IMG/VR virus record: IMGVR_UViG_3300027898_000011
Location: 1-54,116 of that record
Direction: 5' to 3' (one strand)
Length of the DNA: 54,116 nucleotides
DNA from: a virus
This document shows, one piece after another, positions 2,645 through 51,076 of this stretch. Below the pieces are notes generated by a model. That model had not been told where the DNA came from. It searched no databases and saw only the letters and a list, made by a program, of their open reading frames with translations. The position numbers were made by a program, and so were the translations under genes. Every line of letters starts with the position of its first letter. Position 1 is the first letter of the stretch.

Positions 2645-3015
2645 CCCACTCAACCCCCAAGTCGTGCCCGTGTGAATGGGGACAGGACGACACAAAGCTG
2701 AACGACCACAAGGGCGAATGGTGCGTGCGTTGCGGCGGTTGCGGCCATCAGACTATGTATTGCCCCGACCCCGCCACCGCTGTCCGTGTCTGGAACGCCG
2801 GGGTTGACGCGGCGGACCCGGAGTGTGTGGGGATGGTGGGGCTGAAATGGGAGGTCAACGCCATAATGTTGAAGGCCTGCCCGTTGCCAATTGGCGGCGT
2901 GTATCAAGAGGGCGCTTATTGGATATGCGAACTTTTAGGCCTGACGCTGGGTGGTTACCACAAAACCGTTTTTGAAGCCCGCGCCGCGCTTCTCGCGCAT
3001 GTGATGGGGAGTTAG
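2641..3015 (+). CDS. Zinc-ribbon protein, Lar (restriction alleviation)-like
   Basis: 124 residues from the ATG at 2641, which overlaps the previous stop. An upstream in-frame ATG at 2596 lies inside the preceding gene and is less likely. The N-terminus has spaced cysteines (KSCPCEWG, then CVRCGGCG and YCPDP) followed by TAVRVWNAG. This matches the layout of Lar-type small zinc-ribbon proteins, in which a CPxCG knuckle, a second CxxCG knuckle and an A-x-x-WN ending occur in that order. Lar proteins modulate host type I restriction. The C-terminal 60 residues are an unrecognised extension. The Lar assignment is an inference from motif order. Confidence 0.5.
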   Translation: MTHSTPKSCPCEWGQDDTKLNDHKGEWCVRCGGCGHQTMYCPDPATAVRVWNAGVDAADPECVGMVGLKWEVNAIMLKACPLPIGGVYQEGAYWICELLGLTLGGYHKTVFEARAALLAHVMGS

Positions 3016-3019
3016 GGGG

Positions 3020-3274
3020 ATGCCGGATCACATCATCTGCGGTTGCGGCCGCACGCACGACATGCCCGAACTCACCCGATTGCGGGCGGAGGTGGAGAGG
3101 TTGAGGGAGACGCTGTTAAACACCCTTGCCAATCTTGTTGCGGCGCACAGTCTATTGTCTCGTGGCGGCAAAAAAGCAGCACCGTCTGACAAAATGTTTG
3201 CGCAGATGCTCGCTGATTACGAAGCGGCGATTGAACGCGCACGCGCAGCCCTGAAGGAGCCCGGCAATGAGTGA
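3020..3274 (+). CDS. Small coiled-coil protein with N-terminal Cys motif
   Basis: 84 residues starting with a CGCGRTHD knuckle, then a leucine/glutamate heptad-like helix ([20 protein letters not shown]) and a second helix ([14 protein letters not shown]). A strong G-rich ribosome binding site precedes the ATG. The C-terminus overlaps the next gene by eight bases. Small CxC plus coiled-coil proteins are common in phage early regions, but I know no function for this one. Confidence 0.6.
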
Positions 3275-3515
3275 GGAAGGCGGTTTGTCCCGCGCGCTCG
3301 CATTAGAAACGGCGGAGGTATGGGAAACTATGGCCGAAATGGAGAAGGGCGCGCATCCGGCCAGACGCGAAACGCTGCGGGCGTGTGCCGATATGCTGCG
3401 GATGCTGTCTGAGCCCAAGCCACGGTTAGATTGCCCGCACGCCGACCCGTTTCGCTATTGCCCTACCTGCGTTGTCAAACCTTGCCCCATTGGCCTTGGA
3501 GACAACACACCATGA
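3267..3515 (+). CDS. Hypothetical protein with C-terminal Cys cluster
   Basis: 82 residues. The ATG is preceded by AAGGAG at good spacing inside the previous gene. A helical N-terminal half is followed by a cysteine cluster ([14 protein letters not shown] and KPCP) that could bind one zinc ion. It ends in TGA overlapping the ATG of the next gene, and belongs to a run of cysteine-rich small proteins between 2641 and 4030. Confidence 0.6.
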
Positions 3516-3727
3516 CGGCTAACCCCTGCACCCCGCCGAAATGCCATGATTGCGGCAGGTTTATGAACGCCATGCAATCCGGCGTAGCGTGGAAAATGTG
3601 CTATAGCGGCTTTCCCCCAGAACCCGCTGAAGAAATCCACCGTTGCCTGGCATGCGTTGCCAAACTCGGCACGTTTACGCCGCAGCTTGGAATTGTGCCG
3701 GAGTATTCTTGCGGAGTTGTGTCATGA
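3512..3727 (+). CDS. Cys-rich small protein, first PCTPP-module gene
   Basis: 71 residues from the ATG at 3512, coupled by ATGA to the gene before. It begins [15 protein letters not shown]: the NPCTPP module shared with the next three genes, followed immediately by a CHDCG zinc-knuckle half. A second pair of cysteines (RCLAC) could complete a zinc ribbon. The longer open frame starting at 3431 overlaps the previous gene almost entirely and is rejected as the start. Function unknown. Confidence 0.65.
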
Positions 3728-46712: not shown

Positions 46713-46795
46713 TGGTGCCCGTGGAGGGACTTGAACCCCCACTCCGAAAAAGCGGAGCTTAAATCCGCTGCGTCTACCAATTCCGCCACACGGGC
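46713..46795 (-). tRNA. tRNA-Leu (UAA)
   Basis: Class II tRNA of 83 bases including an encoded CCA. Acceptor stem GCCCGTG/CACGGGC, A discriminator, D arm with GGTAGA, anticodon loop TTTAAGC between GCGGA and TCCGC, a variable arm, and T loop TTCAAGT. Reads UUA. Confidence 0.93.
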
Positions 46796-46799
46796 TCTC

Positions 46800-46873
46800 T
46801 GGTTCCGGGGGCTGGATTTGAACCAACATAACAAAGACCAAAGCCTTGTGTCCTACCATTAGACGACCCCGGA
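46800..46873 (-). tRNA. tRNA-Gln (UUG)
   Basis: 74 bases with encoded CCA. Acceptor TCCGGGG/CCCCGGA, U8 present, D arm GTCTAATGGTAGGAC, anticodon loop CTTTGGT (anticodon TTG), T loop TTCAAAT. The U1-A72 pair is a known feature of glutamine tRNAs. Reads CAA. Confidence 0.92.
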
Positions 46874-46878
46874 ATATC

Positions 46879-46954
46879 TGGACCCCCAGACAGGACTCGA
46901 ACCTGCATCCTCCGAACTAGAAAATCAGCGCTCGCCCAGTTGAGCTACTGAGGG
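46879..46954 (-). tRNA. tRNA-Arg (UCU)
   Basis: 76 bases with encoded CCA. Acceptor CCCTCAG/CTGGGGG with a G-T pair, D arm GCTCAACTGGGCGAGC, anticodon loop TTTCTAG (anticodon TCT), T loop TTCGAGT. The closing pair of the anticodon stem is T-T, and the discriminator base is T, so charging may be atypical. Reads AGA. Confidence 0.85.
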
Positions 46955-46959
46955 TAAGC

Positions 46960-47035
46960 TGGCGTCCCTTGCAGGAGTCGAACCTACGTTTGCCCCCTGA
47001 GAAGGGGCTGTCCTAAGCCGCTAGACGAAAGGGAC
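46960..47035 (-). tRNA. tRNA-Glu (CUC)
   Basis: 76 bases with encoded CCA. Acceptor GTCCCTT/AAGGGAC, G discriminator, D arm beginning TCGTCTAG as in bacterial glutamate tRNAs, anticodon loop TTCTCAG between GCCCC and GGGGC (anticodon CTC). Reads GAG. Confidence 0.92.
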
Positions 47036-47040
47036 TAACT

Positions 47041-47116
47041 TGGAGCCCGGGGCGGGACTTGAACCCGCAACCTGCGGTTTACAAAACCGCTACTCTGCCA
47101 TTGAGCTACCCAGGGC
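47041..47116 (-). tRNA. tRNA-Thr (UGU)
   Basis: 76 bases with encoded CCA. Acceptor GCCCTGG/CCCGGGC with one mismatch at pair 5-68, anticodon stem GCGGT/ACCGC around TTTGTAA (anticodon TGT), T loop TTCAAGT. Reads ACA. Confidence 0.9.
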
Positions 47117-47175
47117 GTATTCGGTCGGTTGCAAGTATGGACCCATGCAACCGGAGGCCCGACGAGCCCCTTGTC

Positions 47176-47217
47176 AAAAAGCGGGTTCAGAGGGGAACTG
47201 TGCAAACCTCTGAACCC
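47176..47217 (-). terminator. Strong hairpin inside the tRNA array
   Basis: On the minus strand GGGTTCAGAGG (47217-47207) pairs perfectly over 11 bases with CCTCTGAACCC (47193-47183) around a 13-base loop, followed by GC and five T residues. It sits between the CAU tRNA and the threonine tRNA. It fits an intrinsic terminator, or an RNA-processing hairpin separating the two halves of the array. Confidence 0.65.
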
Positions 47218-47346
47218 AAAGACCGTATCCGCCCACACGCCGACACGGCCTAACTTTGGCGCACGGGGTTGTCGAAGTCCCGCCGCCTATCCCTCCCTCA
47301 CATATGGGGGAGGGACTACCCGGGTGGAGTCAGGCCCGGGTCGTGT

Positions 47347-47423
47347 TGGTGGCGGGAACCGGATTTGAACCGGTAACCAAGTCGTTATGAGCGACCCGCT
47401 CTGCCTGATTGAGCTATCCCGCG
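47347..47423 (-). tRNA. tRNA with CAU anticodon (Met or Ile2)
   Basis: 77 bases with encoded CCA and A discriminator. Anticodon loop CTCATAA, identical to that of bacterial initiator tRNA. Aligned on U8, the first base is C facing C72, an unpaired 1-72 position as in initiators; but the anticodon stem lacks the three G-C pairs of initiators and the D stem is elongator-like. It could be elongator Met, Ile2 (after modification) or an initiator-like hybrid. Confidence 0.88.
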
Positions 47424-47429
47424 TTTATA

Positions 47430-47505
47430 TGGCTGGCAAGGTAGGACTCGAACCTACGATGGGCACATTAACAGTGTGCTGCTTTACCGACTAAGCTACT
47501 TGCCA
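47430..47505 (-). tRNA. tRNA-Asn (GUU)
   Basis: 76 bases with encoded CCA. Acceptor TGGCAAG/CTTGCCA, G discriminator, anticodon stem GCACA/TGTGC around CTGTTAA (anticodon GTT), T arm GTAGG TTCGAGT CCTAC. Reads AAC and AAU. Confidence 0.93.
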
Positions 47506-48552: not shown

Positions 48553-48764
48553 GACGTTTCCTTTTTATAACGGCGATGCTCTTTCAGCAAAGCGGCAATC
48601 GCGGCTTCTTCGGTTTCCTCCATCTGCCGCCAATCTGTTAGCTTGTGATGCCACCGAAAGCCCGGGCCACGAGGATACAACTCGCCTACCAAACAAGGTC
48701 GCCCTTCGGCGTCTTCCTCGTATAGCAGCCAAAACGTATCTTCGTATTCTTCAAGCTTTATCAT
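48549..48764 (-). CDS. Small hypothetical protein, 71 aa
   Basis: ATG overlaps the terminase stop (ATGA), and its stop overlaps the methyltransferase start (GTGA), so the three are coupled. Acidic, with aromatic strands (EEYEDTFWLLYEEDAEGRPC) and a C-terminal helix ending RRYKKETS. No family recognised. Confidence 0.6.
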   Translation of the reverse strand: MIKLEEYEDTFWLLYEEDAEGRPCLVGELYPRGPGFRWHHKLTDWRQMEETEEAAIAALLKEHRRYKKETS

Positions 48765-51076
48765 ATAACTAACAATCCTCGACTCTCATAAGGCGACCGA
48801 ACCGGTCCGGTGTCCAAGGTGGCCCGGCCTACGCACATAATCAAGGCTACCGGACTATCGATTTTCTTACTTTCCTGTTCTTTTACCGGGTACACGTTGT
48901 CCTTGTTGTCCCGGCGCGACACCACGTTGCCAATTTGCCACGTCATAGGGTCCGAGGCACCGCAGTTATGGTGCAGCTTTCCGCCGATGATCCACGAGTC
49001 CAGCGTCTTCATAGGGTCCGACATGGTTTGAATCGTCTGGCGATACTCCACCATGTTGACGCCCTGCTCCATAAGGCGCGTGGCAACGTACGTGGCCTGG
49101 AACGGATCGTAGCAGCAATCCGCCACCGCAAACTTTTTACAGGCGTCCAGCACATCCTCTTCTATCCGGCTGTAGTCGATGATGTTGCCATCCGTTACGT
49201 CCAGCAAGCCCTCTTCGCGCCATTGCTGATAGTGCGCGTTTTTTGGGTCTTCTACTGTAAACTCTGGCAGATAAACCTTGCCGTAGCGAGCATAGTGACC
49301 GTCTCCGAGCGGGAACAGCATTTCCAGGGCGGCCAAGTCCACCTTGGAGGCCAAGTCAAGAGCGATCCAGCACCGCATACCACGCATAGACTCTAACGGT
49401 GGGGCTGCGGGACATTTAGCCCAAGACTCTACGTTGAAATAGGCTTGGCGGCTGTTAACCCACATATTCAGGTGCTTTGTCTTGAACCGGCCCTGGTCGC
49501 GCGGGTTGCGAATAGCCGCCTGCTGCATGTCAAGCAGGTATTCTTCACCCACCGACACACCCATGTTAGGGTTTGCTTTGCGTAGCGAAGCAGGATCGGC
49601 CCAATCGTCTGCCGGAAAGCTTACTTTAAGACCGGATTCGGTCCATTCTGCTGCCTGTGTTTTGCAAATATTCCAATGCCGCTCTGACGCCCTCTTCGCT
49701 ATCTCCAAGAAAGCCAATCGCCGCGTTGCACTGCCTGCAAAGCAGTCCCCTAACATTTCCTCCGCTGTGGCAGTGATCCACGCAAAGGTCTTTTTCCATT
49801 TTGCAGACGGGGCATCTTCCTTGACATTCCGAGTGTAACTTGTCGTATTGCTCAGAAGTAAGTCCGTATTTTCTAAGTCTGGCTCTTTCCCTAACGTATT
49901 CTCGATTGCCTTGCCTCCAACGCTCCGAATTGTTGTGTACGGCGTCTGGCTTCTCGTCGGCGTATTTTCGCCTAGCAAGTCTGAGATTTTCTTTTCGGGT
50001 CGGGCTTGTTCTAAGTAACTCTTTGTCGTAGCAATATTTGCAGAGTCCTTTGACCTTAGCGAGTCTGTCCGGGTGGTTGGGACAAGTGGGTTTGCCTTCG
50101 TCTGATTGCGCAGCGTGACAGCTTTTTCCTGACATATCTCTAACCAAGTGTCCTTTAGCCATTGCTCGTCTAACTGAGCACCATTGTCTACTAAAAATTT
50201 TAGCGCTTCTACCCCAGACAAATGAGCGTCGTAAGGCGCGGAGTCAAGCGTGTATATAAGGGCAAACGATCTTTCATCTTCTATAGCCCCAGACAAAACA
50301 TCTTGCATAACAAGTTGTTTGTTATAGCAAGGGCCTGCAAGATTATCACCAGCAGTAGTAATAATCCACAAAATAGGTTGGTCACGAGCGCCCATGCCTG
50401 TGATCATTGTGTCGTGGGCTTCAGAAGTATCGTGCTGGTGATACTCGTCAATCGCAGCAAAACTAGGGCTAGAACCATCCCCCGGCTTGCCAATAACAGG
50501 CTCAAACTTGCTGTTAGTTGCTGGTATGTTAATATTGCTAGCATTAACTCTTATGCCTTTGGCGGCCATCAAGTTAGGGCTATTGGCCACCATAGTTTTA
50601 GCGGGATTAAAAACTTCCCATGCTTGTTTTTCAGTGGTGGCGTTACAATAAATCTCTGCGCCGTTTTCGTTGTCGTATGCAAGCATGTAGACGCCAACAC
50701 CAGCAGTCAACAGAGACTTGCCATTTTTTCTCGGTATCAAAATGAAAACTTCGCGGAACCGTCGAAACCCGGTGCGCCGGTCCACCCAGCCAAACACCGA
50801 GCAAATAATGAACGCTTCCCAGGGTTCTAGGTGAATTAGCTCTTTGGACGCCGCCCACTTACCTTTGGTGTGAGGCAGTAGCTCCACCACCTTGCAGGGC
50901 CGCTCTGCCTTGACCGGATCAAACACCCAGCGAAAACCGCCTTGCTCTGCCCGCAGCATGTCGTTTTTATGCCGCTGGCAGGCAAGACGGACCCACCTGC
51001 AAGCGGGCTCTTTGCCGCTCAGCACGTCTTCTACATACTGAAACGCTTTGGTTACGTTAGGCGTTTTGTCGGTCAT
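48761..51076 (-). CDS. terL: Large terminase (TerL), with large internal insertion
   Basis: 771 codons as one open frame. ATPase: IPRKNGKS (114-121, Walker A), SFAAIDEYHQH (205-215, Walker B), WIITTAGDN (motif III). Nuclease: WIALDLASKVDLAAL (first Asp near 574), CCYDPFQATY and a final acidic region. HK97-type TerL proteins are about 550-570 residues and normally pass directly from IYTLD to DDW-x-x-KANPN. Here IYTLD ends at 278 and DDW begins at 490, so about 211 codons (roughly 49610-50242) appear inserted. An endonuclease VII-like gene occupies most of that stretch in another frame. Confidence 0.9.
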   Translation of the reverse strand: MTDKTPNVTKAFQYVEDVLSGKEPACRWVRLACQRHKNDMLRAEQGGFRWVFDPVKAERPCKVVELLPHTKGKWAASKELIHLEPWEAFIICSVFGWVDRRTGFRRFREVFILIPRKNGKSLLTAGVGVYMLAYDNENGAEIYCNATTEKQAWEVFNPAKTMVANSPNLMAAKGIRVNASNINIPATNSKFEPVIGKPGDGSSPSFAAIDEYHQHDTSEAHDTMITGMGARDQPILWIITTAGDNLAGPCYNKQLVMQDVLSGAIEDERSFALIYTLDSAPYDAHLSGVEALKFLVDNGAQLDEQWLKDTWLEICQEKAVTLRNQTKANPLVPTTRTDSLRSKDSANIATTKSYLEQARPEKKISDLLGENTPTRSQTPYTTIRSVGGKAIENTLGKEPDLENTDLLLSNTTSYTRNVKEDAPSAKWKKTFAWITATAEEMLGDCFAGSATRRLAFLEIAKRASERHWNICKTQAAEWTESGLKVSFPADDWADPASLRKANPNMGVSVGEEYLLDMQQAAIRNPRDQGRFKTKHLNMWVNSRQAYFNVESWAKCPAAPPLESMRGMRCWIALDLASKVDLAALEMLFPLGDGHYARYGKVYLPEFTVEDPKNAHYQQWREEGLLDVTDGNIIDYSRIEEDVLDACKKFAVADCCYDPFQATYVATRLMEQGVNMVEYRQTIQTMSDPMKTLDSWIIGGKLHHNCGASDPMTWQIGNVVSRRDNKDNVYPVKEQESKKIDSPVALIMCVGRATLDTGPVRSPYESRGLLVI
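49626..50162 (-). CDS. Endonuclease VII-like HNH nuclease nested in terL
   Basis: 178 residues, out of frame with the terminase gene and wholly inside it. N-terminal zinc-finger pattern (CPNHPDRLAKVKGLCKYCYD) and a C-terminal recombination endonuclease VII core: CPVCKMEKDLCVDHCHSGG, VRGLLCRQCNAAIGFLGDSE, with DHCH and the closing CxxCN intact. The conserved motif set makes the gene certain as a protein family match. Free-standing members of this family behave as homing endonucleases. It stops about 15 bases before terminase homology resumes. I do not see group I intron core elements around it. Confidence 0.82.
   Translation of the reverse strand: MAKGHLVRDMSGKSCHAAQSDEGKPTCPNHPDRLAKVKGLCKYCYDKELLRTSPTRKENLRLARRKYADEKPDAVHNNSERWRQGNREYVRERARLRKYGLTSEQYDKLHSECQGRCPVCKMEKDLCVDHCHSGGNVRGLLCRQCNAAIGFLGDSEEGVRAALEYLQNTGSRMDRIRS

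Follow-up and report, generated by a model that had tools for sequence, protein, structure and literature searches.

An endonuclease VII-family gene nested out of frame within an open insertion of phage large terminase genes

Introduction

Homing endonuclease genes are thought to persist in essential genes mainly by means of introns or inteins. The case examined here is terL, the large terminase gene, of a virus whose terminase frame stays open across a nuclease gene. The locus lies on the minus strand of IMG/VR record IMGVR_UViG_3300027898_000011, and the whole stretch analysed (54,116 nt) is referred to below as the window. The original prediction described a 771-codon TerL frame in which the IYTLD and DDW motifs are split by about 211 codons, with an endonuclease VII-like gene in another frame between them. 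It offered two explanations: either TerL is translated through an insertion that overlies a nuclease gene, or a splicing element that escaped recognition removes it.

The terL gene carries an insertion between its ATPase and nuclease domains

The ORF scan detected no stop anywhere in the 771-codon TerL frame (48761-51076, minus strand), insertion included. The end of IYTLD (50243) and the start of DDW (49609) are separated by 211 codons, as had been predicted; in the alignment of eight uninserted homologues, only about 2 residues separate the two motifs. The best placement of the junctions was D278|S279 and F487|P488, which defines an insertion of 627 nt or 209 TerL-frame codons (49616-50242, minus strand), no more than two codons from the boundary first proposed at 49610. 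This stretch is missing in the uninserted homologues, and comparison of another carrier, L286, with phage D3 likewise revealed an empty site (see below). The insertion divides terL into a 5′ part with the ATPase domain up to IYTLD (50243-51076, minus strand) and a 3′ part with the nuclease domain, starting from P488-ADDW (48761-49615, minus strand), and Pfam matches to TerL_ATPase and TerL_nuclease flank it. Its first 21 codons (50180-50242, minus strand) form a leader that precedes the ancestral nuclease start and is of equal length in nearly all lineages.

With both domains and the conserved motifs present, the window TerL satisfied the criteria for an HK97-type terminase, and the HK97 large terminase (PDB 6Z6D), which lacks an insertion at the IYTxD/DDW loop, was the best structural match for the flanking domains. 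Since the window carries a single TerL copy with small terminase and portal genes nearby, we infer that this is presumably the working terminase. A cluster of seven tRNA genes (46713-47505) lies between portal and terL. We also observed that TerL codons 121-278, just upstream of the insertion (50243-50716), have a GC3 of 0.33-0.5, compared with 0.6-0.78 in the rest of terL; this tract is perhaps a converted flank, which is an inference only.

The insertion is nearly filled by an endonuclease VII-family gene

An HNH/His-Me nuclease ORF in another frame nearly fills the insertion. The nested gene (49626-50162, minus strand; 178 codons from the ATG at 50162) matched Pfam Endonuclease_7 (PF02945) with an E-value of 2e-19 and 69.6 bits against a cut-off of 23.6, and the first base of its frame falls on TerL codon position 3. 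The catalytic core (CxxC ... VDHCH ... RGLLCxxCN; 49665-49814, minus strand) also encodes the conserved C-terminal half of a TerL-frame mini-domain described below. V-D-H-x-H and C-x-x-C-N were invariant across 12 nested copies, and both the Pfam match and these catalytic residues agree with the intact core that had been recognised in the window. The zinc-binding CxxC pairs and the DH and N of the core align with those of T4 endonuclease VII (PF02945; PDB 1E7D). However, T4 gp49 is a free-standing junction resolvase, whereas the nested copies bear N-terminal zinc fingers of the CxxHP...CxxCY type. In the window copy the first zinc finger is degenerate and the ancestral ATG position is lost, so that its nuclease could be impaired or weaker. 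In the L011 copy, AAAAGGA stands immediately ahead of the nuclease ATG.

The nested arrangement recurs in 14 phage lineages

We identified an endonuclease VII gene nested at the same TerL site and in the same phase in 13 further phage lineages, giving 14 in total, with TerL identities mostly of 30-55%. Site, phase and an insert length that is a multiple of three were shared by all 12 lineages measured, L284 and L286 having been added later. A TerL search of viral contigs, in which the 771-residue query matched straight through the insertion, recovered L010 and L011; L093 came from querying with the TerL-frame peptide, and L284 and L286 from a zinc-finger search. A nuclease-only search was used as well to avoid a bias towards open frames, and its 12 nearest endonuclease VII loci, several of them already known, all lay within terL at the same site and phase. 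The contigs with nested copies are metagenomic except for L286, which lies in a contig of 61 kb and is inferred from its record number to be an isolate genome. Chimeric tblastn of annotated phages gave no nested copies among the matches listed, scans of bacterial genome contigs gave no terL-nested copy (one of them gave L174, described below), and none was found in 399 genomes of the order to which a Variovorax locus belongs. Thus the architecture in the original prediction was borne out, but it is not unique to this phage.

The TerL frame was fully open in 13 of the 14 lineages. The exception, L100, carries one TAG (L100:1629-1631); stop recoding was rejected as its cause, as TAG terminates other genes in the same contig. 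A terminase with the same residues but without a nuclease would have refuted the prediction. The TerL-frame peptide search, however, found solely nuclease-bearing copies, and the possibility that the insert is native TerL sequence was rejected.

Stops are avoided in the TerL frame across the insertion

To assess openness, codons were shuffled within the nuclease gene while its protein and codon usage were kept. The window gene contained no host-frame stop compared with 3.3 expected (P = 0.007). Over 12 lineages there was 1 stop against 26.8 expected (p = 1.8e-7), and over all 14 there was 1 against 29.6 (p = 1.8e-7). By comparison, 85 non-nested endonuclease VII genes contained 521 stops with 501 expected, and none of the 85 was open in the host frame. 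In the 63-nt leader, 0 stops were found in 12 lineages against 13.2 expected, and TerL codon position 3 was the most variable there (codon-position signal, p = 0.006). A chance open frame is rejected by the shuffles and the non-nested controls, indicating that selection keeps the TerL frame open in 13 of the 14 lineages. The original prediction took the open frame to suggest selection for read-through; stop avoidance supports the selected openness, and translation itself is inferred.

The TerL-frame peptide is conserved beyond the demands of the nuclease frame

Silent sites were over-conserved in the nuclease core across 13 lineages (ratio 1.32), compared with 1.03 for the upstream part of the gene and 1.04 for controls. 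At fourfold sites, which correspond to TerL codon position 2, the E3 ratio reached 1.92 in nested genes versus 1.07 in controls. The first positions of Leu/Arg codons, which correspond to TerL wobble positions, gave only 1.09. An excess at TerL codon position 2 and not at wobble positions indicates that it is the TerL-frame peptide, and not the RNA, that is under selection. Furthermore, TerL-frame similarity over the nuclease core was far above that of synonymous shuffles (z = 13.1; controls 0.0), and it was also raised upstream of the core (z = 6.1), where stop avoidance contributes. As judged from these substitution patterns, the TerL-frame peptide is conserved as a protein to a degree for which the nuclease frame does not account, chiefly over the HNH core.

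The dN/dS analysis that had been proposed for both frames was conducted for one pair of carriers, L097 and L098. The ratios were 0.07 and 0.13 for the two TerL parts and 0.14 for the nuclease, demonstrating, within the scope of this codon comparison, purifying selection on TerL and endonuclease VII. The naive host-frame ratio over the insert was about 1; where two frames overlap, however, changes that are silent for the host mostly alter the nuclease, and this biases the estimate. In the same pair, divergence of the insert was about 10% at its ends (first 60 nt and last 180 nt) and 33% in the middle, with about 17% in the flanking terL. Silent sites in the leader of this pair were conserved as well, a pattern for which selection on the host protein does not account by itself.

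The two insert ends are predicted to fold together

AlphaFold models gave a pLDDT above 90 for the TerL core domains. The insert ends reached about 80-90, as strand-helix-helix and helix-helix-strand-strand, and the middle, which is also poorly conserved in sequence, was below 50 and disordered. The insert modelled alone adopted the same fold as within TerL. According to these models, the two ends are predicted to fold together around the disordered middle, so that the chain re-enters the surface loop that it left. A PDB search found no match for the insert fold, and the mini-domain model was built on 11 sequences only.

The insert is unlikely to be removed or merely tolerated

We considered whether an unrecognised self-splicing RNA, a degenerate or new intron, excises the insert from the terL transcript, in which case the frame would be open only incidentally. 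This is conceivable, as endonuclease VII genes do sit in a group I intron in rV5-like terL and the silent sites at the insert ends are conserved in L097/L098. However, the insert leaves only about 60 nt upstream and 4-35 nt downstream of the nuclease ORF, and a group I core would not fit into so little sequence. Rfam gave no intron match in 12 nested loci (the window, L010, L011 and nine others), while the positive control, the rV5-like intron with endonuclease VII in terL of L188, was detected as Intron_gpI (E = 2e-9). A group I intron was therefore rejected, in agreement with the original prediction, which saw no such core. RNA folding identified no leader-tail pairing common to the nested loci. 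Moreover, stops are avoided although an intron would not require an open frame, and the surplus conservation falls on host codon position 2 rather than on wobble positions. RNA splicing thus appears improbable, and of the two explanations first offered, the translated insertion is favoured by the sequence evidence.

It is equally improbable that the insert is passively tolerated as a disordered loop of 200 residues, with a frame that is merely open and a TerL-frame peptide without conserved structure. The disordered, poorly conserved middle and the naive host-frame dN/dS of about 1 in L097/L098 would fit this possibility. That ratio is biased by the overlapping frames, however, and passive tolerance does not account for fourfold sites of the nuclease core that are over-conserved in nested genes only, or for host-frame similarity (z of 13 in the core and 6 upstream) that is absent from controls.

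Excision at the protein level, with the conserved ends acting as a new protein-splicing domain similar to split intein halves, would be suggested by two conserved ends around a variable middle, as in inteins, and by a first residue that is S or T in several copies. We consider it very unlikely, because the first residue is L, I, E, D or N in other copies, the last residues vary, and a search for intein signs found no conserved C-terminal Asn/Gln, no downstream nucleophile and no HINT-like structure match; an intein as such was rejected on the variable terminal residues and the missing HINT match. Least probable of all is a split terL with ATPase and nuclease halves made separately by internal initiation and endonuclease VII between them: split genes around homing endonucleases do occur in T4-like phages and L100 has an insert stop followed by an open frame, but 13 of the 14 lineages lack a stop and selection acts against stops and on the host-frame peptide.

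An empty site and a scattered distribution imply mobility

L286 carries a D3-like terL with a nested nuclease (L286:2030-4453). Its terL flanks share 90% and 95.5% DNA identity with Pseudomonas phage D3 on either side of the insert, and D3 terL represents the empty site, without the 676-nt stretch present in L286. The GC content of this insert is 0.47 compared with 0.58 in the flanks. A TerL tree built from 82 sequences required 9 parsimony changes for 12 carriers, against 11.4 with shuffled labels. The carriers were polyphyletic, and several were sister to uninserted phages including phiKM1, L013 and L001. This scatter among uninserted terminases implies mobility, with the reservation that the uninserted set was taken from a best-hit search and is not an unbiased survey. 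Taken with the empty site, the distribution suggests that the insert and its nuclease come and go at a fixed site, as homing predicts. Homing of the nested element is inferred, as there are no cleavage data. A single origin of the nested nuclease could not be established, since the nuclease tree was unresolved and its 103 columns are too short to prove it.

A proposed dual-coded homing element in an essential gene

We propose that the insert is a homing-type mobile element that resides in the essential terL without intron or intein splicing, and that one of its frames encodes a nuclease while the other supplies a domain compatible with TerL. We consider this probable; L100, with its host-frame TAG, stands against it as the one exception among 14 lineages. 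Ribosomes would read TerL straight through the insert to yield a terminase with about 180-225 extra residues, and some ribosomes would start the nuclease at an internal ATG. The endonuclease VII-family (HNH/His-Me) nuclease would cut empty terL alleles, into which repair or recombination would copy the element. TerL may tolerate the insert because a closing mini-domain, made up of the host-frame ends, sits on a surface loop and leaves the ATPase and nuclease domains able to form. Sequence comparison demonstrates the architecture, its recurrence at one site in 14 lineages, the scattered distribution, the selected openness and the conservation of the overprinted frame. There are no expression, proteomic or cleavage data, so ribosomal read-through of the insert, a functional terminase, internal initiation of the nuclease and homing are inferred. 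The D3-like copy, whose empty site is known, allows homing and terminase function to be tested directly in a laboratory phage.

The closest precedent is the ShiLan domain, in which a mycobacteriophage methylase gene conceals an HNH nuclease in a different frame (Arsenault, Gosselin and Gogarten 2025, PMC11855218). Both have a stop-free host frame over the insertion with the nuclease in another frame (the third frame in ShiLan), no detected intron or intein, a disjunct distribution and a conserved site between codons. However, the ShiLan host is a non-essential DNA methylase of mycobacteriophages, whereas the present host is terL, and the nested endonuclease VII model gave no match in the ShiLan gp65 frames, so that homology to the ShiLan HNH was not supported. 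The nested endonuclease VII gene is thus of the same kind but not of the same family. The ShiLan paper infers passive tolerance and gives a low-confidence structure (PMC11855218), whereas the nested endonuclease VII recurs in 14 lineages with selection measured on both frames. What is new is the essential host gene, the endonuclease VII family, the 14-lineage recurrence with a near-identical empty site and the quantified selection on both frames.

Another comparison is provided by rV5-like Vequintavirinae (MaxBurger, rV5_ev158, APECc02), which also carry an endonuclease VII-family nuclease within terL on the same strand. That case is a true group I intron, with an Intron_gpI match and a host frame that is closed at once, and its position is at Walker B, in a terminase of another family. 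In rV5-like E. coli phages this intron (L188:1099-1941) is annotated as a join or as split genes, depending on the record.

The nested element appears to pay its way by two-protein coding, in a gene that ranks among the most conserved of phages. As such it can be tested as an example of mobile-element overprinting and of the emergence of a protein domain in a shifted nuclease frame. On balance, we favour the view that, besides splicing of RNA or of protein, homing elements have a third means of residing in an essential gene, namely dual coding, with a nuclease in one frame and a purpose-evolved closing mini-domain in the host frame, and that variants exist in other host genes (helicase-methylases and a dATP/dGTP hydrolase).

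In L174:2725-3297, L218:3291-3893 and L253:3270-3845, endonuclease VII genes lie out of frame, in another phase, within open helicase or DNA methylase genes. Their host frames are stop-free, with Pfam matches to N6_N4_Mtase and Helicase_C for L253 and L218, and they are apparently ShiLan/Pacc40-like hosts but with endonuclease VII. In L288, an endonuclease VII gene (2965-3582) lies out of frame in a dATP/dGTP diphosphohydrolase gene (host frame L288:2735-3772), with dGTP_diPhyd_N split around the insert and 0 host-frame stops compared with 3.7 expected.
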